From an uncultured bacterium (GTDB taxonomy: Bacteria > UBP6 > UBA1177): a DNA stretch of 35,862 nucleotides. Location: contig CAMZDX010000009.1 of assembly GCA_947305505.1 (NCBI GenBank), positions 1 to 35,862 on the forward strand, given 5' to 3'. The notes beneath the pieces are model-generated. The model saw nothing but the letters and a program-made list of their open reading frames with translations, did not search any database and was not told where the DNA came from. A program made the translations under genes and the position numbers. Position 1 is the first letter of the stretch. Every line of letters starts with the position of its first letter. Positions 10,455-29,600 of this stretch are shown one piece after another.

Positions 10455-11792
10455 ATGACAAAAGTTATAACTTACGGAACTTACGATCTGCTTCATTACG
10501 GTCACATCAGGCTTCTGGAAAGGGCAAAAGCTTTGGGAGATTATCTTATCGTCGGTATAACAAGCGATGATTACGATAAGACCAGAGGTAAAATAAATAA
10601 CCAACAGTCTTTGATGGAGCGTGTCGCGGCGGTAAAGGCGACAGGACTTGCTGACGAGATCGTAGTCGAAGAATACGAAGGTCAGAAAATAGATGATATC
10701 CGCAGACTCGGTGTTGATATTTTTACAGTTGGTTCCGATTGGGAGGGCAAGTTCGATTACCTTAACGAATACTGCAAAGTCGTTTATCTGCCGAGAACTG
10801 AAGGAGTTTCAAGTTCAGAGGTAAGAGCCGAGAAAAGAAAACTTAGAATCGGTTTGGTCGGAACAGCGGTTTTTCGGACAAAATTTGTTAAAGAAGCCAA
10901 ATATGTAAATGGTGTCGAAGTTGTCGGCGTATGTGCTTCGCGTTCCAGTGATGAATCGGAATTAAAGGATTTGTTTTACACTGATAATTATGACGAACTT
11001 TTAGAAAAAGTTGATGCTGTTTATATTATTTCAATGCCCGAAAAGCATTATGAACACGCAAAAAAAGCGTTGTTGGCTGGGAAGCATGTTCTTTGTGAAT
11101 CTCCAGTGGCATTGACTAAGGCAGAGTGCAAGGAACTGTTTACTATTGCAAAAGAACGAAATTTGATTTTGATGGATGCCATTAAAACGGCATATTCCAC
11201 AGCATACGAAAGGCTTGTTCTCATGGCAAAGGGAGGCAGAATTGGAAAAGTTGTTTCTGTGGATGCAGTTTGCACAAGCTTGAGAGACGGTATTTCCATC
11301 GAAAGAACCGATCTTTCAAAAAAATGGAATAGTATGTGCGGATGGGCACCTGCTGCGATGCTTCCGATATTCCAGATATTCGGAACAAGATATGATAGCA
11401 AAGTCTTTTATACGATGTTCCAAAGCAAAAAAGACAACATTGATGCTTTTACAAAAATAGATTTTGTCTATCCGTCCGGAGTAGCAACAGTGAAAGTTGC
11501 CAAAGGTGCAAAATCAGAAGGCGAATTGGTAATTTCCGGAACCAAAGGTTATATCTATGTTCCCGCACCATGGTGGAAAACAGATTATTTCGAAGTCAGA
11601 TATGAAAATCAGGAAGAGAACAAAAGATTCTTTTATCAACTCGATGGTGAAGGAATAAGGTATGAAATCGTTGCTTTTGCAAAAGCAGTCGAATCAAAAC
11701 GGAATATGAGCTATGTTTCTCAAGATATTTCTGAAGCAATCTCCGGCGTAATTGAAGACTTTGACAAACGAAAAGATTTAATTGAAATTTGA
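10455..11792 (+). CDS. cytidylyltransferase / Gfo-Idh-MocA oxidoreductase fusion
   Basis: This is a two-domain protein of 445 residues. Residues 1 to about 128 are a TagD-like nucleotidyltransferase: the HxGH catalytic motif is H14-Y-G-H17, R57-V-A-A-V follows, and TEGVSSSEVR (115-124) takes the place of the I-S-T-T-x-I-K signature. Residues from about 130 form a Gfo/Idh/MocA dehydrogenase with the Rossmann strand IGLVGTAV at 132-139. In the second domain the usual E-K-P motif reads E215-S216-P217, so the lysine important for catalysis is missing. The family may have a variant mechanism, or this domain may have lost activity. A GAGAGG site precedes the ATG. The protein probably makes the CDP-activated donor used by the TagF-like transferase at 5833. 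Confidence 0.82.
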   Translation: MTKVITYGTYDLLHYGHIRLLERAKALGDYLIVGITSDDYDKTRGKINNQQSLMERVAAVKATGLADEIVVEEYEGQKIDDIRRLGVDIFTVGSDWEGKFDYLNEYCKVVYLPRTEGVSSSEVRAEKRKLRIGLVGTAVFRTKFVKEAKYVNGVEVVGVCASRSSDESELKDLFYTDNYDELLEKVDAVYIISMPEKHYEHAKKALLAGKHVLCESPVALTKAECKELFTIAKERNLILMDAIKTAYSTAYERLVLMAKGGRIGKVVSVDAVCTSLRDGISIERTDLSKKWNSMCGWAPAAMLPIFQIFGTRYDSKVFYTMFQSKKDNIDAFTKIDFVYPSGVATVKVAKGAKSEGELVISGTKGYIYVPAPWWKTDYFEVRYENQEENKRFFYQLDGEGIRYEIVAFAKAVESKRNMSYVSQDISEAISGVIEDFDKRKDLIEI

Positions 11793-11826
11793 TGGGTTTT
11801 GCTGTTTCGGAGGAGAAAATATAGGG

Positions 11827-13011
11827 GTGAAAGTGCTTTTTTGGATGAATACCGGATTTGGTTCTCATTCTACATCAGGACATCTGCTCAGCGCAATGAT
11901 TAAGCAACTTGCATTAAAAGAGAATAAAGTCCATGTTATCCAAAGCAATCAAAACAGAAATCCTGTGATTCTTCCTCAGAAACTGATTGATTTAGGTGTC
12001 ACAACAGATGGCATTTCTACTGAAACTCCTAACAAAAATAACTTGTTGGGACGTTATTTCGGTGCTGTAAAGTTTTATTGGAATTGTCGCCATGTATTAA
12101 AAGAACATAGGGATGCCGATGCCGTTTTTCTTCAATCGACCAATGTTGCCGGAATTGCAGTTTGGCTTGTCCGCAAATACATAAAGAAAGCAATCGTCAC
12201 CTTCAATGTTCAGGATGTCTTTCCCTATAACGCGGTTTTTAGCGGCAAACTCAAGAAAAACAGCCTTGTCTTCAAGGTTCTTGCTGCTGTTCAGAGATAT
12301 GCCTACAAACACGCTGACCACATAATCACGATTTCAGAGGATATGAAAGAGACTCTTGTGGCTGACGGAACGGATGCATCGAAGATCGAAGTGATTTACA
12401 ACTGGTCATATCAGGATGAACTTTATGAAAATGTCGATTTGACCAGCGTTTCGCACATGTTCAGCAAGGACTTTTTCAATGTGGTATATGCCGGAAACAT
12501 CGGTGTGATGCAGAATGTCGACATTCTAATTGAAGCGGCAAAACTGATGAAAGGTGAAAACAAAATCTGGTTTCACATCATCGGCATCGGTGTCCACAAG
12601 GAAAAACTTGAAGCAAGAGCCAAAGAATACGGTATCACAAACATTTCTTTCTGGCCAATGCAGCCGCCGGAACTCGCCCCGGCAATATACAGCGCGGCAG
12701 ACGTGAATGTCATTCCGCTTGTGAAAGATGTTTACAGAACCGCATTGCCGAGCAAAACAGCGACCTGCCTCGCATGTCAGAAACCGATAATTTTCGCTAT
12801 CGGAAAGGGGAGCAGGTTCGGGCAGAAAATTGCAAAAGAAGCAGAATGCCAGATCGTTGAAGCAGATGATCCGGAAGAACTGGTTGAAGCGATCCGTAAA
12901 GTTCAAAGCGGCGGAACTGCCAATAAAGAAGGAGAGTTTTTCCTGAATTATTGCGGAATTACAGAAAATAGCAGAAAATATGCGGAGATTATTGGGAAGA
13001 TTGTGAAGTGA
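11827..13011 (+). CDS. GT4-family glycosyltransferase
   Basis: This is a GT-B fold retaining glycosyltransferase of the WbuB-like GT4 group. The early motif GSHSTSGHLLSAM is the acceptor-side glycine loop, followed by FNVQDVFPYNAVFSG in the middle, an A-G-N-I-G strand, and a C-terminal nucleotide-sugar site around LPSKTATCLACQKPIIF. GTG 11827 is the preferred start: GGAGGAG lies at 11809-11815, and the only start further upstream is a TTG overlapping the previous gene. This gives 395 residues. WbuB-like enzymes often transfer L-FucNAc, which would match the fnlABC genes, but that is inference. The last 86 bp of the gene region are duplicated 1.9 kb downstream at 14834. Confidence 0.8.
   Translation: MKVLFWMNTGFGSHSTSGHLLSAMIKQLALKENKVHVIQSNQNRNPVILPQKLIDLGVTTDGISTETPNKNNLLGRYFGAVKFYWNCRHVLKEHRDADAVFLQSTNVAGIAVWLVRKYIKKAIVTFNVQDVFPYNAVFSGKLKKNSLVFKVLAAVQRYAYKHADHIITISEDMKETLVADGTDASKIEVIYNWSYQDELYENVDLTSVSHMFSKDFFNVVYAGNIGVMQNVDILIEAAKLMKGENKIWFHIIGIGVHKEKLEARAKEYGITNISFWPMQPPELAPAIYSAADVNVIPLVKDVYRTALPSKTATCLACQKPIIFAIGKGSRFGQKIAKEAECQIVEADDPEELVEAIRKVQSGGTANKEGEFFLNYCGITENSRKYAEIIGKIVK
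12911..12996 (+). repeat. 86-bp direct repeat, left copy (inside the GT4 gene's 3' end)
   Basis: By my alignment this segment matches 14834-14919 at 84 of 86 positions. It encodes the glycosyltransferase C-terminus (from the GTANKEGEFF stretch to AEIIG). The two copies bracket the AlbA-like gene and the 89-bp tandem repeats, so that block looks inserted or recombined into this site. Confidence 0.9.
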
Positions 13012-13041
13012 AAATCGCTTATGGAAAACAAAGGAGTTAAA

Positions 13042-14652
13042 ATGAATCTTGACATCAATCAGAAGTTGACAGAGCTTCTTTCTATGAAATACGAAACAGA
13101 GATTGTTGAATTTAAAGAAGCTAAAGAGACTTTTGCTTTCGATGATCTCGGGAAATATTTTTCGGCTTTAAGCAACGAAGCAAACCTTCATAATGAAAAA
13201 TATGCGTGGCTCATTTTTGGTGTTGAAGATAAGAAGCATGATATCGTTGGAACAAATTACAGAAATGACGCAAGGTCTTTGAACAGCCTGAAAGAAGAGA
13301 TAGGAAAACAGACGACAGGAAACTTAACTTTTGTCGAAATTCATGAATTCTTTAGAAAAAATAAAAATAATGAGGATAAACGGGTTCTTGTTTTTCAAAT
13401 TCCGGCTGCGCCGTGCGGAATGCCGGTTGCATTCAAAAGAGTGTATTACGGGCGTGACGGCGAGGCTCTTGTCGGGCTGAGTATAGAAAAAATCGAGAGG
13501 ATCCGCGCTCAGAATGTTACGAATGACTGGAGTGCGCAGATCATTCCAAACGCTACAATCGAACATCTTTCAAAAGAGGCGATTTCGCTTGCGCGAAAAA
13601 TGTATGCCGAAAAGAATCCTCATCTTGCTTCTGATATTGAGCGTTGGAGCGATTCGACTTTTTTGAATAATGCACGGCTTACACGCGAAGGCAAGATCAC
13701 CAATACGACGATCCTGCTTTTGGGAAAGCCTGAATCGGCAGATTTGATTATTCCCGCTCTTAGTCAAATTACTTGGATTCTGAAAGACCGTGACGGCATG
13801 GTAAGGGATTATGAACATTTTTACTGCCCGCTCATTGTTTCGGCAGAGAAAGTTAAGGCAAAAATACGAAATCTAACATACCGTTACATGACCGGCGATT
13901 CGATTTTCCCGAAAGAAACTTTGCAGTACGATCCTTATATTATTCGCGAGGCGTTGAACAACGCTATCGCTCATCAGGATTATTCAAAAGCGGGAAGAAT
14001 CACCGTGCAGGAGCACGAAGACGACTATCTGATCTTCTGCAACTGCGGTGATTTTATTCCGGGAAGCATAGAAAATGTTCTGAAAGCCGAATATTCCGCG
14101 AGCAATTACCGCAATCCGTTCCTTGCGACTGCGATGGTCAATCTGAACATGATCGATACCGTAGGAAGCGGTATCCTGAAGATGTTTCTTGCTCAAAAGA
14201 AGAGATGTTTCCCGTTGCCCGATTACGATTTCTCAAATCACGAAGTGCGCATGAAACTTTATGGCAAAATCCTGGATATAAACTATACCAGGCGGCTCCT
14301 GAATGAAGATTTACCGCTTTCTGAAGTCTTCGAATTGGATAGAAAACAGAAAGAAGAATTCATTTTGCATAGAAACGACCCTGTAAAGGAACAAGTAAAG
14401 GAACAAGTAAAGGAACAAGTAAAGGAACAAGTAAAATCGCTGATTTTTGTCTTAGAAGGGGAAAAAAGTAAGAAAGAATTAGTGGAATTGCTAAACTTAA
14501 AAGGTTTGAGAAATTTTTCAGAAAATTATATTTCTCCTGCTCTGGAAGGTGGTTTTGTGGAATTGACGCAACCTGATTCTCCAAATAGTCCGACGCAGAA
14601 GTATCGCTTAACAGCGAAAGGATTTGCTTTAAAAAAGGAAATTACGAGATAA
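13042..14652 (+). CDS. AlbA_2 (Schlafen-like) domain / ATP-binding regulator-like protein with KEQV repeats
   Basis: Proteins of this architecture have an N-terminal AlbA_2 (Schlafen-related) domain, seen here as ETEIVEFKEAKETF and GVEDKKHDIVG, then a GHKL-like ATP-binding segment (EALNNAIAHQDYS, and later GSGILKMFLAQ), and a C-terminal winged helix. They are usually annotated as putative transcriptional regulators, but some Schlafen-like proteins serve in nucleic-acid defence. Between ATPase and winged helix lies a perfect four-fold KEQV repeat, probably a flexible or coiled linker. ATG 13042 is preferred over 13021 because AAGGAG lies 6-7 bp before it, giving 536 residues. The gene stands out among glycan genes and is bracketed by an 86-bp duplication, so it is probably a late arrival. 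Confidence 0.75.
   Translation: MNLDINQKLTELLSMKYETEIVEFKEAKETFAFDDLGKYFSALSNEANLHNEKYAWLIFGVEDKKHDIVGTNYRNDARSLNSLKEEIGKQTTGNLTFVEIHEFFRKNKNNEDKRVLVFQIPAAPCGMPVAFKRVYYGRDGEALVGLSIEKIERIRAQNVTNDWSAQIIPNATIEHLSKEAISLARKMYAEKNPHLASDIERWSDSTFLNNARLTREGKITNTTILLLGKPESADLIIPALSQITWILKDRDGMVRDYEHFYCPLIVSAEKVKAKIRNLTYRYMTGDSIFPKETLQYDPYIIREALNNAIAHQDYSKAGRITVQEHEDDYLIFCNCGDFIPGSIENVLKAEYSASNYRNPFLATAMVNLNMIDTVGSGILKMFLAQKKRCFPLPDYDFSNHEVRMKLYGKILDINYTRRLLNEDLPLSEVFELDRKQKEEFILHRNDPVKEQVKEQVKEQVKEQVKSLIFVLEGEKSKKELVELLNLKGLRNFSENYISPALEGGFVELTQPDSPNSPTQKYRLTAKGFALKKEITR
14383..14430 (+). repeat. 12-bp tandem repeat, 4 copies, in frame
   Basis: Four perfect copies of GTAAAGGAACAA encode V-K-E-Q units in the linker of the AlbA-like protein. 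Unit length is a multiple of three, so copy number can change without breaking the frame. Identity at DNA level suggests recent slippage expansion. Confidence 0.95.
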
Positions 14653-14828
14653 AAACGAGTGAATTACGAAAGGAAATAAATGCAAGTGATGAAAAATATT
14701 GCTGTTTTTATAAGTTTTTTACGAGAAGAATTACGAGATAAAAACGAGTAAATTACGAAAGGAAATAAATGCAAGTGCTGAAGAATATTGTTGTTTTCAT
14801 AAGTTTTTTACGAGAAGAATTACGAGAT
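14641..14828 (+). repeat. 89-bp tandem duplication with a partial third unit
   Basis: Units at 14641-14729 and 14730-14818, with a third start at 14819, repeat the tail of the AlbA-like gene (ATTACGAGAT) and the following leader. Each full unit holds a ribosome-binding-like AAAGGAAATAA and an ATG opening a near-identical micro-ORF (14680-14751 and 14769-14834; MQVMKNIAVFISFLREELRD and its variant). The second micro-ORF overlaps the ATG at 14827. Whether the peptides are made is unknown. Confidence 0.85.
14680..14751 (+). CDS. possible micro-ORF, 23 aa, copy 1
   Basis: An ATG preceded by AAAGGAAATA opens 23 codons: MQVMKNIAVFISFLREELRD, then KNE. The peptide is a hydrophobic start with a charged amphipathic end. 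A second version follows 89 bp on. No family is recognised. The variation between copies includes synonymous and conservative changes, but this is too short to prove coding. Confidence 0.2.
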   Translation: MQVMKNIAVFISFLREELRDKNE

Positions 14829-14834
14829 GAATAG
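14769..14834 (+). CDS. possible micro-ORF, 21 aa, copy 2
   Basis: This is the second tandem version, MQVLKNIVVFISFLREELRD then E, with the same AAAGGAAATA before the ATG. Its TAG stop lies just beyond the ATG (14827) of the duplicated glycosyltransferase tail. It may be only a by-product of the tandem duplication. Confidence 0.2.
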   Translation: MQVLKNIVVFISFLREELRDE

Positions 14835-14928
14835 CGAAACTGCCAATAAAGAAGGAGAGTTTTTCCTGAATTATTGCGGAATTACAGATAATAGCAGAAA
14901 ATATGCGGAGATTATTGGGGGAATATAA
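14827..14928 (+). pseudogene. duplicated C-terminal fragment of the upstream GT4 gene
   Basis: An ATG at 14827 opens a 33-codon frame whose sequence after four codons repeats the end of the glycosyltransferase encoded at 11827-13011 (ETANKEGEFF through KYAEIIGG). The frame is preserved and the stop lies directly before the next ATG. It is a fragment produced by the duplication, not an enzyme. It may still serve as the translational lead-in to the next gene. Confidence 0.75.
14834..14919 (+). repeat. 86-bp direct repeat, right copy
   Basis: This is the partner of 12911-12996, with two mismatches in 86 positions (12914/14837 and 12966/14889). It ends 9 bp before the next glycosyltransferase start. 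Confidence 0.9.
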
Positions 14929-15948
14929 ATGAAAATCATTGTTTATGACATAGCGGTCAGCAAAGGTGGCGGCGGAGAAAGTATTCTTGATCAATATTTT
15001 AATCAGGCCATATCTGACACTAAAAACGAATGGTGGTTTTTGGTATCTTTGTATAAATATAATAATGCTGAAAACGACCATGTTCATGTGGTTTATGTCG
15101 ATGTTAAAAGGTCGTCAAAGATCAAAAGTTATTTTTTAAGAAAGAAATATGAAATTTTTGAGTTGAAGAAAGCGATAAAAGCCATTGAACCTGATGAAGT
15201 AATATCTTTGCAGAATATGGTTGTTCCATGGGCAAAATGCAAACAAACGGTTTATATGCACCAGCCACTACAATTTGCCCCTGTCAAGTATAGTTTTTTT
15301 CGTAAAGAAGAACGCGATTTTGCTTTCAGACAGCATATAGTCTGTAGAATTATCAGAAGAAATTTACGCAAAGCTGACAAAATTATCGTACAGACTTTCT
15401 GGATGAAAAAAGGCGTGGCTGAATGGCTCCCCTATCCTGAAGAACAAATAGTTGTTGAAAGACCTGTTTTTACACTACCTGTCTTGGAATCAAAGAATTT
15501 GAAACTTGATAACATATTCTTCTTTCCGGCAAATGCTTATCTTCACAAAAATCATCAGGTAATAGTCGAAGCATGTAAGTTACTGAAAAAGAAAGGGGTT
15601 AATGATTATCATGTTCAATTTACACTCTCTCCTGATAGCGGGATTTTGGCGAAAAAACTATTTGATGAAATACAGAAAGAGGAGCTTCCTATAGAATTTA
15701 TCGGTCATTTGGACAAAAAAACATTGTTCCCGAAGTATCAAACATCAATAATGCTGTTCCCAAGTTATGTGGAAACTTTCGGTTTGCCTTTGCTGGAAGC
15801 CAAGACTCTTGGTGGAAGAATTATTGCAAGCAATCTTCCGTTTGCACATGAAATTCTTGACGGTTATGATTCGGTTAAATTTGTAGACTGGAACGATGCT
15901 TCTGCCTGGGCGGATGCAATTGAAAAATATATAGCGAAAACAGAGTAG
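14929..15948 (+). CDS. glycosyltransferase, GT4-like
   Basis: This 339-residue GT-B glycosyltransferase begins MKIIVYDIAVSKGGGGESIL, where the glycine-rich loop marks the family's acceptor domain. The central F-F-P-A-N-A-Y-L-H-K-N-H-Q stretch and the C-terminal FPSYVETFGLPLLEAKTLG contain the E-x-F-G-L-P-x-x-E-A motif that binds the nucleotide sugar in GT4 enzymes. It should add one sugar of the repeat unit at the inner membrane face. The immediate upstream sequence is the duplicated tail of another glycosyltransferase, so its present promoter and leader are recombinant. Donor and acceptor are not predictable. Confidence 0.82.
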   Translation: MKIIVYDIAVSKGGGGESILDQYFNQAISDTKNEWWFLVSLYKYNNAENDHVHVVYVDVKRSSKIKSYFLRKKYEIFELKKAIKAIEPDEVISLQNMVVPWAKCKQTVYMHQPLQFAPVKYSFFRKEERDFAFRQHIVCRIIRRNLRKADKIIVQTFWMKKGVAEWLPYPEEQIVVERPVFTLPVLESKNLKLDNIFFFPANAYLHKNHQVIVEACKLLKKKGVNDYHVQFTLSPDSGILAKKLFDEIQKEELPIEFIGHLDKKTLFPKYQTSIMLFPSYVETFGLPLLEAKTLGGRIIASNLPFAHEILDGYDSVKFVDWNDASAWADAIEKYIAKTE

Positions 15949-20996: not shown

Positions 20997-21062
20997 ATGA
21001 TTGATGTCGGGGAATTTGTGAAAAAGATTCTTGAAATAGAAAGGACAGGAGGGGAAAGATGA
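20997..21062 (+). CDS. possible short ORF (21 aa) ahead of the SIR2 gene
   Basis: AAGGA precedes an ATG opening MIDVGEFVKKILEIERTGGE, then R and TGA. The TGA overlaps the ATG of the SIR2-like gene (ATGA), and its last codons carry that gene's AGGAGGGG ribosome binding site. It looks like either a coupling leader or the surviving 5' end of a gene cut by the islet's arrival. No family is recognised. Confidence 0.3.
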   Translation: MIDVGEFVKKILEIERTGGER

Positions 21063-22525
21063 AAAAGTATGGTTTTCTTTTCGGAGCGGGTGCTGAATTG
21101 GCATATAATATGCCTTCTGGAGGTCAATTTGCGCTTGATATTTTTAGATACGACACATATGAGGCAAAACAGAATTTCAAAAAGATGAGGGATACGGTAG
21201 ACTCAAAAACTTTATATGCTAATCACTGGCTTCCGGGAAATTATAAGACAAAGAATATAAGTGTATTTGGGAAATCTATCTTTCAAAATATCATAATGAG
21301 TACAATAGAGCATAGAAAAAATCAGATTATAGAGAAAATAAATGCCTTCGATGATATTGCTCGTGAGTTTTCGAACGACAAGGTAGAGTCTGCCTTTAAT
21401 AATATTTTGGGAGAGTCTGTGTCAAATGTTTGTTTGGCGCAAGATGTCGCATATAATGATGTCTTTAAAAATGGAAACAAGCTTTTTGAAAGCAATTACT
21501 TTTCCGCATTGCTTATGCTTTACAAGAAAATTTCTAATAAGCAAAAGTTGGGAAGTGTATTATTTTCTATTATGCAGTTGCAACTTGGTGCATTAAGTGA
21601 GGAGGTGACAAGCAATATAAACGATAATCTGTTTGCTAAAAAGGATGATGAAATTGATTTCTTTGATGATTTCGGAGAACTGATAAAACTTAATTATAAT
21701 GCTGCAGGAGCCTCGGGTTTGGAACTTTTATTTGATATGCATAAAGATGCAAATCCAACATCTGATGAAGATATTGTTATTCACTTCGCACAGACAATTC
21801 TTGAAGATATATATGCTGCGGTTTTAGATTATAAGACTTTGATTGATGCAAATTGGCATTATCTTTACAATCCATCATCTGATTGGGCAAAATTCTGCAA
21901 GATAGCGATTTTTCTTTTGACGGTTCACGATTATATTACAAAAAAAGGAACTGACGTGAATAAAAACAATGCAGCAGGATATTATGATATGCTGCAAATG
22001 GCATTGAAAAACGGACAGTATGAGGCATCTGTTATCGCTACAACGAACTACAATAATATTATCGAAGAAATTCTTAAACCAACAGCACCTATTGTTTATC
22101 TTAACGGGTCTGTTTCGATGTGGTATGATCCTTATTTAAACAAGATGGGAACTAAGAAAAGTTTGGATGATGTCGAACACCATATAATTGTTCCGCTACT
22201 TTTCACACAAAGTGGAACAAAGCCCATGACTTCTATAAGTATGTCGGAAAAATACGTTGATATGTATCGAGCGTGGAAAGAATCTGATGCGGTAGTTGTT
22301 GTGGGCTTTGGTTTCGGTGCAGATGATGAACACATTAACGGCATACTTAGGACACTTGTTAATGATGAAAATATAAGACTGAAGGTTGTTACTCTTGAAG
22401 GAAAAAATAACTCTAGACGAGATATAGCTAATAAACTTAAAGTAAAGGATGAGAGCAAAATAGATGTGATTTTAGTCGACCAGAATGGAAAGTGTAAAGG
22501 CAAGTCGTGGACTGAGTGTATTTAA
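21059..22525 (+). CDS. SIR2-like domain protein, probable defence effector
   Basis: This 488-residue protein has the outline of a bacterial SIR2-like NAD-processing effector. A glycine-rich FGAGAELAYNMPSGGQFA segment (8-25) binds NAD. ATTNYNNIIE (327-336) matches the T-T-N-Y-D-x-L-L-E motif. YLNGSVSMW (347-355) stands where most relatives have H-G. VVVGFGFGADDEHIN (near 412-426) is the last nucleotide-binding motif. N349 replaces the usual catalytic histidine, which may mean altered or lost NADase activity. The middle (about 60-300) is helical and unassigned. AGGAGGGG precedes the ATG, and 15 bp separate it from the nuclease-STAND gene, so they form one transcription unit. Depletion of NAD on infection is the usual role of this class. 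Confidence 0.8.
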   Translation: MKKYGFLFGAGAELAYNMPSGGQFALDIFRYDTYEAKQNFKKMRDTVDSKTLYANHWLPGNYKTKNISVFGKSIFQNIIMSTIEHRKNQIIEKINAFDDIAREFSNDKVESAFNNILGESVSNVCLAQDVAYNDVFKNGNKLFESNYFSALLMLYKKISNKQKLGSVLFSIMQLQLGALSEEVTSNINDNLFAKKDDEIDFFDDFGELIKLNYNAAGASGLELLFDMHKDANPTSDEDIVIHFAQTILEDIYAAVLDYKTLIDANWHYLYNPSSDWAKFCKIAIFLLTVHDYITKKGTDVNKNNAAGYYDMLQMALKNGQYEASVIATTNYNNIIEEILKPTAPIVYLNGSVSMWYDPYLNKMGTKKSLDDVEHHIIVPLLFTQSGTKPMTSISMSEKYVDMYRAWKESDAVVVVGFGFGADDEHINGILRTLVNDENIRLKVVTLEGKNNSRRDIANKLKVKDESKIDVILVDQNGKCKGKSWTECI

Positions 22526-22540
22526 GAAGTTCGAGGTTAA

Positions 22541-25500
22541 GTGAAGACAGCTAGAAATTCATATAAAGGTTATACCTACCAGCATTATATTTTTACTCTG
22601 CTTCTTGCGAAGATGGATACAGAGAGGAAAATTGCCAGGATTATCCCTGAACCGACGGATACAAGGAATAATTTTGATGATGCATACGTTGAACTCTTGT
22701 CAGGCGAACGATACCGTCTCCAGGTAAAAAACTATAAAGACGTTAAGTTCACAGATATTCAGGTTGATACTGCGGCTCATGTTGTGAAAATCAAGAGCAA
22801 CCGGGATGAGTATGATCCGGCTGATAATAACATATTTGTTTTGAATGCGGATTTTGAGGTTCCATGTGACAATAAATTTCTTGATATCCCGGCGATGCAG
22901 AAGGATGGCATAATGATTGTCCCGCTTTCAGAAGATAATGTTGCTGATACGATAGATGGGCTGTATCAGCATGTAAGCCGGGAACTTCAGATAATTCAAT
23001 TCGGGTATAAATTAATATCATCAGGCAAGTTCGATGTGACCACAACTGATCTTCCTCCGATAAAAACTATTTCTACAGACTTGGATCGGGAGACCGTTGT
23101 TGTTCGCGGTGTGCCCGAAGATTTTCCTGTTGGTATTACACACTTTGAAGGAAAGCCGGGAGTAGGAAAGAGCCACTATGTAAATGAAATTATTGATGAG
23201 CATCCGGATTCCATCATTTATAGATTTTGGATCGGCACACAGGATCCAGAATTAAATGAACGATTGCGATATGATGTGTTTTTAGAACAGTTAGGTTTGT
23301 TAGCGTTCCAATCTCCGAAGTCCTTTACCGATGATGAACTCATAGAACAGTTATGCCGTATTAACAAGCTCGTTATTATTGATGGTTTGGATCATGTGGA
23401 AAACTATAATCCAAAGGAGCTTAGTAAGTTTATTGAATTCTTTGATAAGTTAAATAGACGACCTGCAAAAGTAGTAATATTGTCAAGACCGATGAAAGCT
23501 TCTCTTGCGTGGAAGAAAACGGAACAACTAACCGACTGGACTTACGATGAAACAGCTCTGTATCTTGCTGTTGCCCATTCAATTACAGATCTTAAAATAC
23601 AGAGAGCGATATATGATATTTCAAAAGGATATCCGATAGTTACATGTTTCGTTGCTGAGTACTACTTAAAATATCATGAACTCCGTGTAGACAAACCGAT
23701 TAATAGCATCTCTGACTACTATAACGAACTAATTTCTGATGTCGGAACGAAATCAGTATTAGGCATTTTTGCAGTTAATAATAGCTTCTTTACCTTCAAA
23801 GAAATAAAAGGTTTTTGTGATTCGTTTTCGTATAAGGTAATAAGAGAATTTATAAACGAATACTCGTATCTATTTGAAATTATAGCAAACAGGATATCCT
23901 TGATTCACGATAGTTTTAATACCTTCCTCAAACAACAAGAAGAAGAAAATGAGTGGATAACAACAATAAATCAGAAGGTCTACGAAAAGCTTTTGGCAGG
24001 TGATGTTGAGTACATGGCAAGGCTGTCCTCTTTCCATTTAGATGAGTCACAAATATGTAATATCATAAAGCAGTATTCTAACTTTGATGTTTTCGAAAAG
24101 CTGATGCTTAGTACTGTGGATTATAACTCAATAGCCACATTTTATGAGCAGTTGAGGCGTCTGCTTGATACACGGCCGGATATTCTCGATATATACCAAT
24201 ATTATTCATTTGCTCTTATTTTTCAGATTGTGACAAGAAATGACCTTGTTGGTTATGAAGATCTCGTTTTTCAAATTCTCGAATATCTTAAAAATCATGG
24301 AGGTGTCGAGAATCAGATATTCAGCTCAGGAATCATTTGGCAGGTATATCTCGCATGTGAAAAAGATCAGCCGGAAAGTATTAAGAGATACTTGGAAAAT
24401 ACCATGTATGGTAATGGACAAGTCAGATTAGCATATAAGTCTATAAATGATGAGATAGAGTTCTTTGACTGTCTGGATAATGAAACAGATGCATTAGAGT
24501 TGTTCCATCAAATAAATTCGATTGAGAATTACAGTCTGAAAAAATCAGAATTGTTGCAAAAATACCTTGTTGCAGCATGGATTCAGCAGAATCCCAAGTT
24601 GCCTTTTTTTAATGAGTTTAGGAGTTTCGTGGAAAATGACAATGCGGATCAAATCTATATTGCACTTCAGTCAGCATATCATTTTGATAAATACGATATT
24701 CAGAATGTTTGTTATTCTGTAAGATACAGGTTGCATGAATTGGGTTTTTTCGGGGAAAAGAATATTTGCCGGCAAGGGAGCATACTTAGTATTGTTAAAG
24801 AAAAAGCACCAGAAGGATCGTTTGAAGTTGTACCGGCGGTTTTGTCTTTTCTGCGATTGGCAAATCATGAAAATAGAACAGCGGATATTTACAACATCAA
24901 TTATGTATGGAGTATGTATTCTCAGCGTAAGGATTACAGTGTTTGTACGATAGATTCAGCTTTGTGTGCCTATGAACGAGCAGGTCTGATAGATGAATCA
25001 GATTCCTTCGAGATAATATGCAGATTGATGGAACAGTCGGAAAAGGGAATCCGGCATTTGCTCTCATCATATATTGATTTGAAAGGACCGGAGTATGTGA
25101 AACGCTTAGTAAAATCAGAAAAGATATTTGATATAAAATCTCAAGTGGATTTTTTTGAAATAGATCCTGAAAATATAAATTGCCTTCCAGAAAACATAAT
25201 AAGAAAGCGTTTGACAAATTTGATTGATCATTACAGTTGGAGCGAGGAGATAGATGGTAGTGAAGTCAGGAATGTTTTGAGATCTGACTATGCGAAGCTG
25301 ATTTGTAATGTTTTGAGTTCCTTGGACAAGAAGGTTAAGGGCGGACTTGATGATGAAGAAATAAGTATTCTTGATAAATACGTGGTAGAGTATATTCGTG
25401 AGAATAATACGGATATTGAGACGGAGTATTTGCCCTTCAGAGACGGATGCATAAGCAGAGAGGATTTTGATTATATCAAAGAAAATCATATATCCGTCAT

Positions 25501-25867
25501 TGAATGTTCTCGCTATGCAGGTGGCTGGTATGACTGTCTGCCTTATGTGGATTTGTATGAGCTCTTTGATATTCAAGAGGTCAAAGAACTATATCTTTCG
25601 ATTATCCACAATTCGCTATTTGCAAAAGTGATCCGTGGCGAGCATATCGGCAGCTGGATGAACATTATAGGGAACATCCCGGCTTTCCTAGAAAAATACG
25701 AAGTGGCAGACATTGACTGGGAACGATTGTTTCAACAGATGCTTCGATTTATGGATCTGTCAGTTATTTACTATCCTGCAAACTATAGTGCCAAACAAAA
25801 CCCGGACAGAAAGGAAAGAGTGGAAACCCCGCCTCTTTTCTCCAGGAACGACCTGATATTTTTCTGA
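22541..25867 (+). CDS. STAND NTPase with N-terminal DUF4297/Cap4-like nuclease domain
   Basis: This 1108-residue protein resembles Avs-type immune sensors. Residues 1 to about 150 match a DUF4297/Cap4-like PD-(D/E)xK nuclease: GYTYQHYIFTLLL (10-22), D46-D47, E51 and Q61-V62-K63. A STAND NTPase follows with Walker A GKPGVGKS (204-211), Walker B LVIIDGLDH (277-285) and an arginine-bearing VVILSRPMKAS strand. From about 400 on it is helical without obvious repeats, the usual target-sensing part. The start is GTG behind GAGG. The last ~24 residues (after YYPANYS) are translated from an insertion-sequence-end-like segment, so the native C-terminus seems lost. Expected action: recognise a phage product, oligomerise, cut DNA, perhaps with SIR2 as second effector. 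Confidence 0.78.
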   Translation: MKTARNSYKGYTYQHYIFTLLLAKMDTERKIARIIPEPTDTRNNFDDAYVELLSGERYRLQVKNYKDVKFTDIQVDTAAHVVKIKSNRDEYDPADNNIFVLNADFEVPCDNKFLDIPAMQKDGIMIVPLSEDNVADTIDGLYQHVSRELQIIQFGYKLISSGKFDVTTTDLPPIKTISTDLDRETVVVRGVPEDFPVGITHFEGKPGVGKSHYVNEIIDEHPDSIIYRFWIGTQDPELNERLRYDVFLEQLGLLAFQSPKSFTDDELIEQLCRINKLVIIDGLDHVENYNPKELSKFIEFFDKLNRRPAKVVILSRPMKASLAWKKTEQLTDWTYDETALYLAVAHSITDLKIQRAIYDISKGYPIVTCFVAEYYLKYHELRVDKPINSISDYYNELISDVGTKSVLGIFAVNNSFFTFKEIKGFCDSFSYKVIREFINEYSYLFEIIANRISLIHDSFNTFLKQQEEENEWITTINQKVYEKLLAGDVEYMARLSSFHLDESQICNIIKQYSNFDVFEKLMLSTVDYNSIATFYEQLRRLLDTRPDILDIYQYYSFALIFQIVTRNDLVGYEDLVFQILEYLKNHGGVENQIFSSGIIWQVYLACEKDQPESIKRYLENTMYGNGQVRLAYKSINDEIEFFDCLDNETDALELFHQINSIENYSLKKSELLQKYLVAAWIQQNPKLPFFNEFRSFVENDNADQIYIALQSAYHFDKYDIQNVCYSVRYRLHELGFFGEKNICRQGSILSIVKEKAPEGSFEVVPAVLSFLRLANHENRTADIYNINYVWSMYSQRKDYSVCTIDSALCAYERAGLIDESDSFEIICRLMEQSEKGIRHLLSSYIDLKGPEYVKRLVKSEKIFDIKSQVDFFEIDPENINCLPENIIRKRLTNLIDHYSWSEEIDGSEVRNVLRSDYAKLICNVLSSLDKKVKGGLDDEEISILDKYVVEYIRENNTDIETEYLPFRDGCISREDFDYIKENHISVIECSRYAGGWYDCLPYVDLYELFDIQEVKELYLSIIHNSLFAKVIRGEHIGSWMNIIGNIPAFLEKYEVADIDWERLFQQMLRFMDLSVIYYPANYSAKQNPDRKERVETPPLFSRNDLIFF
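25784..25808 (+). mobile_element. insertion-sequence-end-like fragment 1
   Basis: TATAGTGCCAAACAAAAC, then CCGGACA, resembles the fragment at 31703-31727 (19 of 25 positions by my alignment). Its first 17 bases recur exactly at 27546-27562. Read inward from TG it looks like an IS3-family-type terminus. No transposase gene is present. It lies inside the 3' end of the STAND gene. Confidence 0.4.
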
Positions 25868-26138
25868 CCTTTCTTTGTTTAAAAAAATCTTAATTTTTTT
25901 CAGAAGTGACCCTTGAAACTGGGGAAAGTGTTGTTTTTACTTGGAAAATTGGTCTCAAAAAAGAGAAGGATGATGTGAAATTTCACAAAAAATTTCTTTT
26001 TTAATCGAAAAATAGAAAAATATAGAAAAATTTTTTTTATAGACATCTTGACTTTGAGATAAGGTGCTTATTAACAAGCGCGGAGTTCCTGCGGGTGCAG
26101 GAATAGTTTAGGTCTTTAAAATTTGAAGGAGAGAAAAA
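25868..26138 (+). promoter_or_regulatory. intergenic region with promoter and leader hairpin of the Thoeris pair
   Basis: An AT-only inverted repeat at 25881-25900 (AAAAAAAT-CTTA-ATTTTTTT) may act as a weak terminator for the STAND gene. A promoter candidate is TTGACT at 26048-26053 with TATTAA at 26069-26074 (15-bp spacing, short). A perfect 7-bp hairpin, TTCCTGC-GGGT-GCAGGAA, sits at 26086-26103 in the leader. AAGGAGAG precedes the thsB ATG. Confidence 0.4.
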
Positions 26139-26639
26139 ATGGCTTACAAAACAAAGGTTTATGTGTCTTTTGATGCGGACAATGACATGAAGTATTATCG
26201 AACATTACAAATGTGGGATGCAAATGACAAGTTCGAATTTGAGTTCAACGATGCTCACGAAACAAATACGATCCTTGACAAAAGCGAAGCTTCCATAAAA
26301 GCAGGACTTCAGGAACGATTTAGAAGTACTAAGATTTTTGTCCTTCTTATTGGAGAACACACGAAATACTTGCATAAATATGTGCGCTGGGAAATAGAAC
26401 AGGCCATTAAACGTGAAATCCCTATAATTGCAGTAAATATCAACGGGGAAAAACAACTCGATTATGATTTGTGCCCACCAATTCTGAAATCTGAACTGGC
26501 TATCCACATTCCATTTAAAGAAAAAATTATCACTTATGCTTTGGATCACTGGCCTCAACAAGATGCTGAATGCAGGAAGAATGAAGAAAGGGAAGCGTTT
26601 GTTTATAAAGATAGTGTTTACAAAAAATTAGGGTGTTAA
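26139..26639 (+). CDS. thsB: TIR-like protein, Thoeris ThsB
   Basis: This 166-residue single-domain TIR protein is of the ThsB (DUF1863-like) type. It starts with the strand KVYVSFDADND, has the characteristic F-N-D-A-H-E-T loop (37-42), a TKIFVLLIG strand (64-72), and V-R-W-E85-I-E near the active site, where TIR enzymes carry their catalytic glutamate. In Thoeris, ThsB senses phage infection and turns NAD into a signal nucleotide. In type II systems this is described as histidine-ADP-ribose. It stands directly before a membrane/macro-domain protein, the type II partner. The start is an ATG behind AAGGAGAG. A TIR effector that simply destroys NAD is the alternative, made unlikely by the macro-domain neighbour. 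Confidence 0.83.
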   Translation: MAYKTKVYVSFDADNDMKYYRTLQMWDANDKFEFEFNDAHETNTILDKSEASIKAGLQERFRSTKIFVLLIGEHTKYLHKYVRWEIEQAIKREIPIIAVNINGEKQLDYDLCPPILKSELAIHIPFKEKIITYALDHWPQQDAECRKNEEREAFVYKDSVYKKLGC

Positions 26640-26640
26640 A

Positions 26641-27540
26641 TTGGTTGATAGGTTTAGAGTTTTTTGGAAATCTCTTTCCAGGGAAAAAAATACATTTCTG
26701 GCACTCTGGCAATTGACATACACGGCTATAGGTTTTATTTCGACTGCTTTTTCATTTGCTGTGTTAGTTAAAAACTTGATTGGATATACCGGATTCGAAA
26801 GCTGGTGTAAAGATTATTGGTGGGCCTTGCTTTCTTCGGGAATCCTTGCTTCTGTAGTAAAAAACAAAGAGCAGACATCTTTCGAAGGTGCGTTGGAAAA
26901 TGATGATTTCAGAGTCAATGTTAGAGTGTCAAATTTGTTTTCTGTTGGAGCGTCGAGTTTTGTCATTCCGACAAACACATTCTTTCGGACAAAAATGGAC
27001 GGGGAGTATATTAGTCCTGATAGTGTTCAAGGAGATTTTCAGCTGAAGTATTTTAAAAATAGATTTGATGAACTTGACAGACTGATAGAGGCAAGTTTGC
27101 AGGAACAAAACATTGCCTACGAAAATGCTCACGATAAATTTGGTGCGGTCAAAAAGTATCCGATAGGATCTGTAGCCAAGGTCGATTTTGGAGGTAAGCA
27201 TTATTATTTTGTGGCGATTAATGATGTCAATGAGTTTGGCAAGCCTGAAGGACAAGGGTATTCTAATGTTGAAGCCGCTTTAAAAGGATTGCGCAAAACC
27301 ATTGAGAAAATCGGGCATTGTGATGAACTTGCCATGCCTTTGATTGGAACAGGGCGAGCTACGATTCGAGAAGCCACTAAAGATAAGGTCTTTCAAGATA
27401 TTGTTGACTGTTTCCTCAATGCCGAAAACAAGATCTCTAGGAAATTAATTGTTTGCATAAGCCCTAAAGATTATCTAGAAGGAATGATTAACTTGAAAAG
27501 AGTAAGAAAATATCTCGATTATAAGGGCGAATTTAAATAA
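26641..27540 (+). CDS. thsA: membrane-anchored macro-domain protein, Thoeris type II ThsA
   Basis: This 299-residue protein has two N-terminal transmembrane helices (about 17-45 and 59-78; FLALWQLTYTAIGFISTAFS and WWALLSSGILASVV) followed by a macro-like domain. Recognisable parts are V-I-P-T-N-T-F-F (where macro domains have a N-x-N-x-x-L loop) and ELAMPLIGTGRATI, the phosphate-binding loop. In type II Thoeris the macro domain binds the ThsB product and the membrane part then damages the inner membrane. Translation seems to start at TTG one base after the thsB stop, because the frame is closed upstream by TAG and the next ATG is far inside. An IS-end-like repeat begins 5 bp after its stop. 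Confidence 0.8.
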   Translation: MVDRFRVFWKSLSREKNTFLALWQLTYTAIGFISTAFSFAVLVKNLIGYTGFESWCKDYWWALLSSGILASVVKNKEQTSFEGALENDDFRVNVRVSNLFSVGASSFVIPTNTFFRTKMDGEYISPDSVQGDFQLKYFKNRFDELDRLIEASLQEQNIAYENAHDKFGAVKKYPIGSVAKVDFGGKHYYFVAINDVNEFGKPEGQGYSNVEAALKGLRKTIEKIGHCDELAMPLIGTGRATIREATKDKVFQDIVDCFLNAENKISRKLIVCISPKDYLEGMINLKRVRKYLDYKGEFK

Positions 27541-27545
27541 TAAAG

Positions 27546-27562
27546 TATAGTGCCAAACAAAA
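27546..27562 (+). mobile_element. insertion-sequence-end-like fragment 2 (17-bp direct repeat of 25784-25800)
   Basis: TATAGTGCCAAACAAAA is identical to 25784-25800 and in the same orientation. Together the two copies bracket the Thoeris pair exactly, ending one side inside the STAND gene and the other just after thsA. No transposase is nearby. Confidence 0.45.
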
Positions 27563-27651
27563 ACTCACAGATTTTTGCCGCTTCGCGATATTTACGGTCT
27601 GCACTTTAATCGACATTCTGAGAATAAACTGTCTGGAAAAGCCATTTTTCA

Positions 27652-27676
27652 GGTTGCTTCGACAGGCTCAGCAACC
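27652..27676 (+). repeat. hairpin repeat GGTTGCT...AGCAACC
   Basis: A 7-bp stem with an 11-base loop (TCGACAGGCTC). Hairpins with this TTCGACAGGCTCAG core are familiar to me as scattered intergenic repeats in varied bacteria, but I cannot check copy number here. It lies in the gene-free stretch after thsA. Confidence 0.55.
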
Positions 27677-27749
27677 GGTGCCGCCGCAGGATTAGAGTGT
27701 ATAGGGAATTTAGGGAGCGGCGGAGGGAATGATTCTACCGATTCAAGCC

Positions 27750-27847
27750 TCCCCTGTAGGCTCCCCTGAAGCAGGGGAGCTGGCTGCGAAGCAGACTGAG
27801 GGGTTGGAGATGCCGTAAAACGGCGGAGAGGTCTGAAACGTCTCTAC
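27750..27847 (+). repeat. palindromic intergenic repeat A (left of RhuM-Doc)
   Basis: This is a string of hairpins: GCTCCCCT-GAAGC-AGGGGAGC (27760-27780), CTGC-GAA-GCAG (27784-27794), GCCG-TAAAA-CGGC (27812-27824), then GAGAGGTCT and GTCTCTAC. Much of it is matched in inverted orientation at 29489-29541. The remainder of the 27541-27968 gap holds AT-rich sequence and the promoter at 27902; I see no gene in it. Confidence 0.75.
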
Positions 27848-27901
27848 GAATCAATAAATGAAAAAAATAAAATCCTGCTAAAATAAAAATCTAAAAATAA
27901 T

Positions 27902-27930
27902 TTGACTTTCATTTATTCTTTGGATATGTT
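27902..27930 (+). promoter_or_regulatory. sigma70-type promoter of the RhuM-Doc pair
   Basis: TTGACT (27902-27907) and TATGTT (27925-27930) are spaced by 17 bp, the best-formed promoter in the window. It lies 39 bp before the RhuM-like start. Autoregulation by the downstream DNA-binding protein is likely by analogy with toxin-antitoxin operons. Confidence 0.6.
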
Positions 27931-27968
27931 TCTTTTTCAGTGATCATTTTGAGGAATGGGGGCGGGAT

Positions 27969-28988
27969 ATGAATAAAGACCTGACTGCTTCAAGGATAGA
28001 TCGGCAGAATATTTTGAATAATGAAATGGCTATTGAAGAAATTCAAGATAAGTCCGGTATCGTTGGAATTGAGTGGGACGGCAAGACTTATCTGACAAAG
28101 GAAGCTGTTGCATCGTTTTTTGAGGTGGATATCAGAACGATTAGCCGATATATTGAACAGAATAATAATGAGTTGACAGAAAACGGATACGTTGTTCTTC
28201 GAGGAAAGCAATTGAAGAGTTTTCTTGCTACAGCTTCAGAATACTATGCTAAGGACATTAATGTCCCTAGCAAAATTAGTCAGCTGGGTCTTTTTGATTT
28301 CAAAGCATTTCTAAATATGGCGATGCTTTTGTCTGAAAGTGAAAAAGCCAGGGCTTTACGGCAACTTATGCTGGATATTGTTATTGATTTGATAAATCGG
28401 CGGACTGGCGGAGGTACAAAATATATTAATCAGCGCGATAAAGATTTTATCGGGTCGTATTTGCAGGAAGAAAACTATAGAAGAGAATTTACGGATGCTC
28501 TTAAACAATGCGTCGCAGAAGATCGTTACAAATACGCACATTTTACAGATATGATTTATGTGAGTATTTTTAAAGAAAAAGCACGTGAATATAAAAAGAT
28601 ACTTGATCTCAAAGCAAGTGAGAAGGTGAGAGATACTTTCTATAGTGAAATCCTTGATATTATTGCTGCGTATGAAAGCGGATTGGCAGATGCTATAAAG
28701 AATGAATATAAAAATGCAGGACATGTTCTTAGCATAGAAGAAACAGAGGCTTTGTTTCATCGTTTTGAAACTATGGCTCTTTGGAAACCGTTGATTCACA
28801 GAGGTCGAACAAAGATGGCAAGTCGCGATATGGCATTGCGAGATGCATTTCATTACCAGCTTTCAGAATATATTCAGCCTCTTGATCAGGGAGAATATCA
28901 AAAGTTTCTTGGTGTTACAGGTGATGAATTAGAACGTTTGATGGCTGAAAATAAAGATGTGTTGAAACGATTGAAGGAGCGTGACTAA
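27969..28988 (+). CDS. RhuM-like DNA-binding protein, probable antitoxin of the Doc toxin
   Basis: This 339-residue protein has an N-terminal helix-turn-helix region (about 40-73: YLTKEAVASFFEVDIRTISR) and a RhuM-like body (RYKYAHFTDMIYVSIFKEKA near 192-211, and later a conserved RDMALRDA). RhuM-family proteins often precede Fic/Doc genes and probably serve as antitoxin and repressor, although direct proof is limited. The ATG follows GGGGGCGGGAT, a G-rich binding site, and its stop is 3 bp before the Doc start. Virulence protein is a historic label for this family and says little. No classic Phd antitoxin is present, so this protein is the natural candidate for neutralising the toxin. Confidence 0.75.
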   Translation: MNKDLTASRIDRQNILNNEMAIEEIQDKSGIVGIEWDGKTYLTKEAVASFFEVDIRTISRYIEQNNNELTENGYVVLRGKQLKSFLATASEYYAKDINVPSKISQLGLFDFKAFLNMAMLLSESEKARALRQLMLDIVIDLINRRTGGGTKYINQRDKDFIGSYLQEENYRREFTDALKQCVAEDRYKYAHFTDMIYVSIFKEKAREYKKILDLKASEKVRDTFYSEILDIIAAYESGLADAIKNEYKNAGHVLSIEETEALFHRFETMALWKPLIHRGRTKMASRDMALRDAFHYQLSEYIQPLDQGEYQKFLGVTGDELERLMAENKDVLKRLKERD

Positions 28989-28991
28989 AAG

Positions 28992-29429
28992 ATGGACGGC
29001 ATAGTTTATATCACGCTCGAACAGGCGAAAGATATTCATCGCAAGACAATTCAGTATAGCGGCGGTGGAATCTATGAACATTTCGATCTTGGTAGGCTTG
29101 ATAGTGTTTTACAAAATATTAAAAACGATGATTATTATCCCACTTTCGAGGATAAGATTACACACTTGTTTTATTGTACTTGTGAATTTCATTGTTTCGC
29201 AGACGGAAACAAACGCCTTGCAATTACATTAAGTGCACAGTTCCTGTTGCTTAACGGCTATATGGCGGTTGCAAAGCATTTCTTCGAGGTTATGGAAAAT
29301 ATCAGCTATCATGTTGCAGCAGGGAAAATTGATAAGGAATTGCTTCATCGGATTATGGTCGCTGTCATGGATGGAACATATGATTCAGATGAAGAATTGA
29401 AATTGGCAATTATTAAAGCAATTCAATAA
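28992..29429 (+). CDS. doc: Fic/Doc-family toxin, Doc type
   Basis: This 145-residue all-helical Fic-fold protein carries the catalytic motif H67-C-F-A-D-G-N-K74-R75. The lysine in place of the second Fic glycine (H-x-F-x-x-G-N-G-R in true Fic enzymes) marks the Doc subgroup. Doc from phage P1 phosphorylates elongation factor EF-Tu and stops translation. The Fic flap region is short, as in Doc. It is translated right after the RhuM-like gene (3-bp gap) and so is probably the toxin of a toxin-antitoxin pair. Whether it acts as a kinase or an AMP-transferase here needs assay. Inverted hairpin repeats flank the pair. Confidence 0.85.
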   Translation: MDGIVYITLEQAKDIHRKTIQYSGGGIYEHFDLGRLDSVLQNIKNDDYYPTFEDKITHLFYCTCEFHCFADGNKRLAITLSAQFLLLNGYMAVAKHFFEVMENISYHVAAGKIDKELLHRIMVAVMDGTYDSDEELKLAIIKAIQ

Positions 29430-29470
29430 ATAACGTTTTTAACCTTTTTCGCATTTCCTAAAAAAATCAG

Positions 29471-29476
29471 TATAAT
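29471..29476 (+). promoter_or_regulatory. -10 box of the vioA-rmlA operon
   Basis: TATAAT is followed by GCGGCGGTTTTT, nearly the same context as at 5701. No clear -35 box is visible. Repeat B lies between this promoter and the first gene, so the transcript would begin with several strong hairpins. Confidence 0.45.
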
Positions 29477-29488
29477 GCGGCGGTTTTT

Positions 29489-29600
29489 GTAGAGACCTCT
29501 CAGACAACCTGCGGTTGCCAGCTCCCCTACTTCAGGGGAGCCTTTCTACCTCTTCAAGCCTCCACTGAGGCAGGGGAGGTGCCGCGAGCGGCGGAGGGGT
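29489..29600 (-). repeat. palindromic intergenic repeat B (right of RhuM-Doc, inverted relative to A)
   Basis: Hairpins are CAACC-TGC-GGTTG (29505-29517), GCTCCCCT-ACTTC-AGGGGAGC (29521-29541), GCCTC-CACT-GAGGC (29558-29571) and GCCGC-GA-GCGGC (29581-29592). The last is followed by GGAGGGG and eight T, which could also terminate transcription. Its left half is the reverse complement of the right half of repeat A. Confidence 0.75.

Follow-up and report, generated by a model that had tools for sequence, protein, structure and literature searches.

The window analysed here, a stretch of 35,862 bp, is contig C9 (CAMZDX010000009.1) of a 1.63-Mb, 125-contig metagenome-assembled genome (MAG), estimated to be 59% complete, of an uncultured bacterium of the candidate phylum UBP6, which is known from rumen and related sources. 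The open reading frames (ORFs) and their Pfam domains identify the operon that it carries as a surface-polysaccharide (exopolysaccharide) cluster. Between two glycosyltransferase genes of this operon, GT1 and GT2, lies an intact AlbA_2 gene, bracketed by an 86-bp direct repeat of the GT1 tail. The features of this region are listed below, where GT2' denotes an unrelated glycosyltransferase gene that directly follows GT1 in the congener G012.

11782–13011, plus strand: GT1, a full-length group-1 glycosyltransferase gene (Pfam Glyco_trans_1_4/4_4).
12911–12996, plus strand: left copy of the 86-bp repeat, the 3' end of GT1, with the upstream context seen in single-copy G012.
12997–14833, plus strand: inserted segment of about 1.84 kb without terminal inverted repeats, its limits set by the edges of the repeat and by the G012 single-copy junction.
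13004–13024, plus strand: relic of the GT2' interior, codons 32–38 (EVKIAYG), 95% identical over 21 nt to contig C49 of G012.
13042–14652, plus strand: intact gene with AlbA_2 (Schlafen), HATPase_c_4 and Fic-like C-terminal winged-helix domains (Pfam; orthologues in G011 and G013).
14640–14828, plus strand: 89-bp tandem duplication, from the 3' end of the AlbA_2 gene, two copies at 94% plus 11 nt of a third.
14834–14919, plus strand: right copy of the 86-bp repeat, a truncated GT1 tail; homology to G012 runs 27 nt further, into the next start codon.
14929–15948, plus strand: GT2, a group-1 glycosyltransferase gene and the native downstream neighbour (Pfam; a 31% homologue lies directly behind the GT1 orthologue in G008).

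The two repeat copies match at 84 of 86 positions and enclose a single intact AlbA_2/HATPase_c_4 gene, as a preliminary description of this DNA had stated. They differ by G at 12914 against A at 14837, and by A at 12966 against T at 14889. With the 86-mer as query, the copies were recovered from the window's own genome at E values of about 1e-36 and no third copy was found there. Absent from the preliminary description was the tandem duplication (14640–14728 and 14729–14817) between the AlbA_2 stop codon and the right copy; the stretch 14644–14833 gave no convincing match in the genus.

The enclosed ORF (13021–14652) is also open from an ATG at 13021, the better start being the ATG at 13042, which is preceded by AAGGAG. 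Each of its three Pfam domains scored above the cut-off, SLFN_AlbA_2 (PF04326) with 46.0 bits against a curated threshold of 25.3 and HATPase_c_4 (PF13749) with 38.6 against 26 bits, the third being Fic-like_C. A sequence comparison of the protein with the PDB yielded one relative only, the C-terminal domain of a Fic protein, and PADLOC returned weak matches only. Judged from its domains alone (a Schlafen-type domain, a GHKL-type ATPase and a winged helix), the product is probably a defence- or toxin-like accessory factor. Orthologues occur in G011 (92% DNA identity) and G013 (90%) at other genomic sites. In both, similarity ends at the VKEQ repeat (window 14365–14435), where the C-terminal winged-helix part has been exchanged, and a close copy of the window's own C-terminal part is found behind YhcG genes in G006, G009 and G014.

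The evidence that the segment was added to the operon comes from two congeners. In G012 (contig C49), the GT1 orthologue is 92% identical in DNA to that of the window over 880 bp ending at 12996, the repeat edge (blastn, L116), and carries a single copy of the 86-mer. At this junction the upstream context of the window's left copy is joined to the downstream context of the right copy (GGGGAAATATAAATGAA), with homology on the right side extending 27 nt beyond the repeat. G008 has no AlbA gene here: its GT1 orthologue (66% amino acid identity) and the beginning of a GT2-family gene (31%, E 5e-53) overlap, and behind these come a gene in the Wzy position that shows no detectable similarity and a pyruvyl transferase gene (29%). 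The preliminary description had held that an arrangement common to all relatives would speak against an insertion, and G012 and G008 both differ from the window. Because of the single-copy junction in G012 and the adjacency without AlbA in G008, we conclude that the approximately 1.84 kb from 12997 to 14833 were added between GT1 and GT2 together with the 86-bp duplication; on this comparison of sequences, an insertion with duplication of the upstream gene's tail is well supported.

The left edge of the segment bears a trace of another gene. The preliminary description noted a GTG at 13008 that overlaps the GT1 stop codon (13009–13011), which is correct, and took the M-K-I-A-Y read from it for the interrupted start of a downstream gene. 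The frame behind the left copy reads EVKIAYGKQRS-stop, and the sequence GAAGTGAAAATCGCTTATGG (frame EVKIAYG), directly behind that copy, corresponds to codons 32–38 of GT2'; because the match is to the interior of that gene, M-K-I-A-Y is the middle of a lost gene and not the start of one. The relic also matches, likewise at 95%, the GT2' genes of G009, G001 and G002, and suggests that a G012-type cluster was either the origin of the inserted piece or a station on its way.

Three conventional vehicles were considered for the segment and rejected. Neither a transposase ORF nor inverted repeats of a transposon or insertion sequence are present in 12997–14833, and the duplication, at 86 bp, is long; a 20-mer of the repeat had no exact match in viral contigs; and a search for plasmid carriage gave only distant relatives, at less than 60% identity.

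A similar scar surrounds a YhcG (DUF1016/PDDEXK) gene on contig C12 of G009 (L188). Here the direct repeat that flanks the gene consists of the opening 154 bp of GT2' (93%). Its left copy abuts, at AGGAAATATGC, the final 35 bp or so of a GT1 tail and has variants in common with G002 (GGGCGT..GCATTCGTTCC), the right copy has variants in common with G012 (CGCAACGGTTATGTTCC), and the contrast is limited to the second half of the duplicated stretch (77-nt blocks). With one copy G002-like and the other G012-like, the two are not simple duplicates of one target. A parallel from another phylum is Anoxybacillus sp. J5B (L051), where prkA and yhbH are separated by an AlbA_2 gene and 240 bp of the prkA tail are duplicated; in relatives of this strain prkA and yhbH are contiguous with one copy of the tail, a verified empty site. 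The 5' part of the left copy is close to one relative, and the 3' end is divergent, with a different terminator. The right copy has been split by a later insert of about 250 bp (L051 7898–8145 and 10102–10224), of which 112–123 bp recur at the contig end. A 194-bp direct-repeat bracket (87%) was also seen around a Fic gene in Idiomarina fontislapidosi (L089 8190–9293).

The frequency of such brackets was surveyed in 95 sequences, made up of the window, 14 other loci from its genus and 80 loci that surround AlbA_2 homologues. At a threshold of at least 80 bits, brackets were found around 5 of 75 AlbA_2 genes, the window included, against 3 of 455 other ORFs (p = 0.002, or 0.009 without the window), those three being the Fic gene, the YhcG gene of G009 and the yhbH gene beside the Anoxybacillus case. 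With only 5 of 75 genes bracketed, the idea of the bracket as a universal property of AlbA_2 genes was discarded. At a threshold of at least 45 bits in the window's genus, 25 of 59 YhcG genes, 4 of 24 ORF6N genes and 7 of 192 other ORFs were bracketed, in counts to which dispersed intergenic repeats contribute and in which orthologous insertions were not collapsed by tree. When the repeats were restricted to those of few contexts, 17 of the 59 YhcG genes remained, against 3 of the 192 others (p = 2e-9), and the YhcG excess persisted when flanks and gene lengths were matched. When about 30 loci were taken from each family by best score, brackets were found at 14 of 28 YhcG and 2 of 28 ORF6N loci. 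Of 26 YhcG genes from outside the genus, 3 scored as bracketed, one of these being a G012 locus that was counted a second time. E. coli K-12 yhcG, tried as a model of the scar, has no bracket.

Some of the YhcG brackets could be matched to empty or single-copy sites. In a joined-flank query, which covered L193, L203, L205 and L215 and left out the sites from L219 on, L215 was the one of the four with a two-sided empty site. For the bracket of G004:C35, the window's own genome supplies such a site, contiguous over 308 bp at 92%. For the bracket of G004:C29 there are single-copy homologues in at least 10 genomes; both copies keep the gene-end context and the edge is inexact. Loci L272, L284, L280, L222 and others were excluded as clean cases, their brackets containing dispersed intergenic repeats. 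One such repeat, of about 140 bp (ATCTAATTTTATTGAAT...TTGAGTCTGAGAATGAGGAAATGCGA), lies beside YhcG and ORF6N genes (L194 728–867, L217 536–606, L193 1333–1381) and others contain GTCGGAGCTTAGGTCTGC; all look like small non-coding repeat families. The genus (15 genomes, L193–L292) shows a strong expansion of both YhcG, with about 85 matches, and ORF6N, with about 130.

We consider it probable, though only modestly so, that recombination with incoming DNA placed the AlbA_2 segment between GT1 and GT2, a route with moderate support. The preliminary description had offered insertion with a long duplication or a recombination-driven exchange; the duplication of the GT1 tail stands, and exchange fits better than the target-site duplication of a transposon, because terminal inverted repeats are lacking, a GT2' relic lies at the left edge and the copies in the two parallel cases are different alleles. 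Those copies carry the alleles of different relatives, which again suggests recombination with incoming DNA over transposition. Most likely, the donor would have been a related polysaccharide cluster in which the AlbA gene already stood behind GT1 and a decayed GT2'. The incoming piece would pair with the resident GT1 tail and might then enter as an end-joined circle, by one crossover, or as a linear piece with homology on one side and an illegitimate join on the other, at 14833/14834; either course would leave a second, truncated GT1 tail adjoining GT2. The junction at 14833/14834 is non-homologous; a crossover somewhere in GT1 is inferred, with a single relative for comparison, and so are the donor, direction and route of the segment. 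Since the scar recurs around YhcG nuclease genes and other AlbA_2 genes, it looks like the mark of a general route by which such genes move. Several observations nevertheless weigh against recombination with incoming DNA. The 86-mer of the window is carried by one relative only, so that comparison of allele origin is limited to G012, whose downstream gene differs beyond the 27 nt of shared sequence. Both mismatches are private to the right copy, and a simple duplication followed by decay would also fit. Some brackets are 100% identical, as expected of a fresh target duplication. A generic recombination route would also need some gene-specific activity or selection to explain why brackets are so strongly enriched around YhcG genes; the YhcG preference favours either a true target duplication or selection on top of recombination.

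The former would follow if AlbA_2 and YhcG nuclease genes, in the way of certain restriction-modification genes, mobilise themselves, making or exploiting staggered breaks such that the target is duplicated over 30–240 bp as the gene is copied in; this is the principal rival, which we rate as possible but distinctly less probable. It would account for the YhcG excess in the genus, in all brackets as in those of few contexts, for the contrast with ORF6N genes, which are equally abundant accessory genes, and for the empty site that the window's own genome offers for one YhcG bracket; duplications of variable length, about 100 bp, have moreover been recorded for restriction-modification systems (PMC3874152). 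It agrees poorly with the two best-resolved cases, whose copies are different alleles and not copies of one target, with the relics of other glycosyltransferase genes that flank the inserts, and with the lack of conserved insert ends, related YhcG units being similar for a variable 0–200 bp past the ORF. Dispersed intergenic repeats also account for part of the genus excess, and E. coli K-12 yhcG and most YhcG genes outside the genus have no bracket. The broader proposition, that YhcG (DUF1016/PDDEXK) and AlbA_2/GHKL genes are mobile without a transposase and promote their own spread, the breaks made by their products being mended with a copy of the gene and target duplications of 30–240 bp being left at gene edges, is one that we entertain only tentatively; if true, it would extend to candidate phage-defence nucleases a principle proposed for restriction-modification genes. 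The direction of transfer could also be reversed, with the AlbA gene resident behind GT1 and a truncated GT1 tail arriving together with GT2, Wzy and so on and being attached by an illegitimate join behind AlbA, so that the duplication would mark replacement of the operon's downstream half and not the arrival of AlbA. The window does mix a G012-like GT1–GT2' context on the left with a G008-like GT1–GT2 order on the right, and the only clearly non-homologous junction is that at 14833/14834, but both copies are of the same G012-like GT1 allele, the right one as far as the next start codon, and the AlbA orthologues at 90–92% DNA identity at unrelated sites in congeners imply that the gene moves on its own; we regard this replacement as unlikely. 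Least probable by far is an artefact of assembly, in which a metagenome bin had merged strain variants. The 125 contigs and 59% completeness of the MAG make such an error conceivable, but the copies differ at two sites, their flanks differ on both sides, and the scar occurs in several genomes, including the 240-bp Anoxybacillus case with clean empty sites in relatives.

Elsewhere in the window, a block of defence-type genes (21059–29429) lies within the polysaccharide operon and contains a SIR2-like gene with a large ATPase gene, a Thoeris pair (ThsB TIR, ThsA macro) and a PDC-M59A/B pair, the second gene of which is Fic/Doc-like. A repeat search of the window found no long direct repeats around this block. 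The intergenic sequences at 29446–29600 and 27733–27804, before an aminotransferase gene, resemble the sequence that precedes the first gene of the operon in G001 (L189 14579–14748), in both orientations.

Small defence-like genes such as YhcG, AlbA_2, Fic and RhuM are dispersed across bacterial genomes with no evident means of transport; long flanking duplications with verified empty sites provide a footprint for dating and locating their arrival. The enrichment at YhcG is the part most worth following: with about 42% of YhcG genes bracketed against about 4% of other genes, the choice between self-promoted insertion and good passengers becomes testable. In the literature library that was searched, no report was found of insertion with long target duplication, or of recombination-type duplication, for YhcG or AlbA_2.

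Restriction-modification genes have reportedly been inserted with long target duplications, in work attributed to Nobusato et al. 2000 (Gene 259:99) and Furuta et al. 2010. A review likewise describes this mode of insertion for restriction-modification systems, with duplications of about 100 bp (PMC3874152). The window resembles these in having a small gene unit within long, variable target repeats (of the order of 100 bp), a single copy in a relative and no classical transposase. It differs in that the unit holds only an AlbA_2/HATPase_c_4/Fic-like_C gene, or YhcG in parallel cases, and no restriction-modification gene, and in that the copies are different alleles in two cases (L188 and L051), which suggests recombination over duplication of the target. 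Homology-facilitated illegitimate recombination (HFIR), said to have been described by de Vries and Wackernagel 2002, offers a second comparison. In E. coli, single crossovers by end-joined circular DNA gave duplications of the homologous locus of 109–950 bp (PMC3240628), and the present scar is similar to both in that foreign DNA would be anchored by homology on one side. Here, however, the route is inferred from anatomy, and strict HFIR predicts deletion and not duplication. Glycosyltransferase genes are, finally, exchanged among bacterial surface-polysaccharide clusters, and the mosaic operon, the truncated gene tails and the relics at the junctions of the window are in keeping with such exchange; in contrast to it, the gene gained here is not a polysaccharide gene, and the scar is also found outside such clusters.

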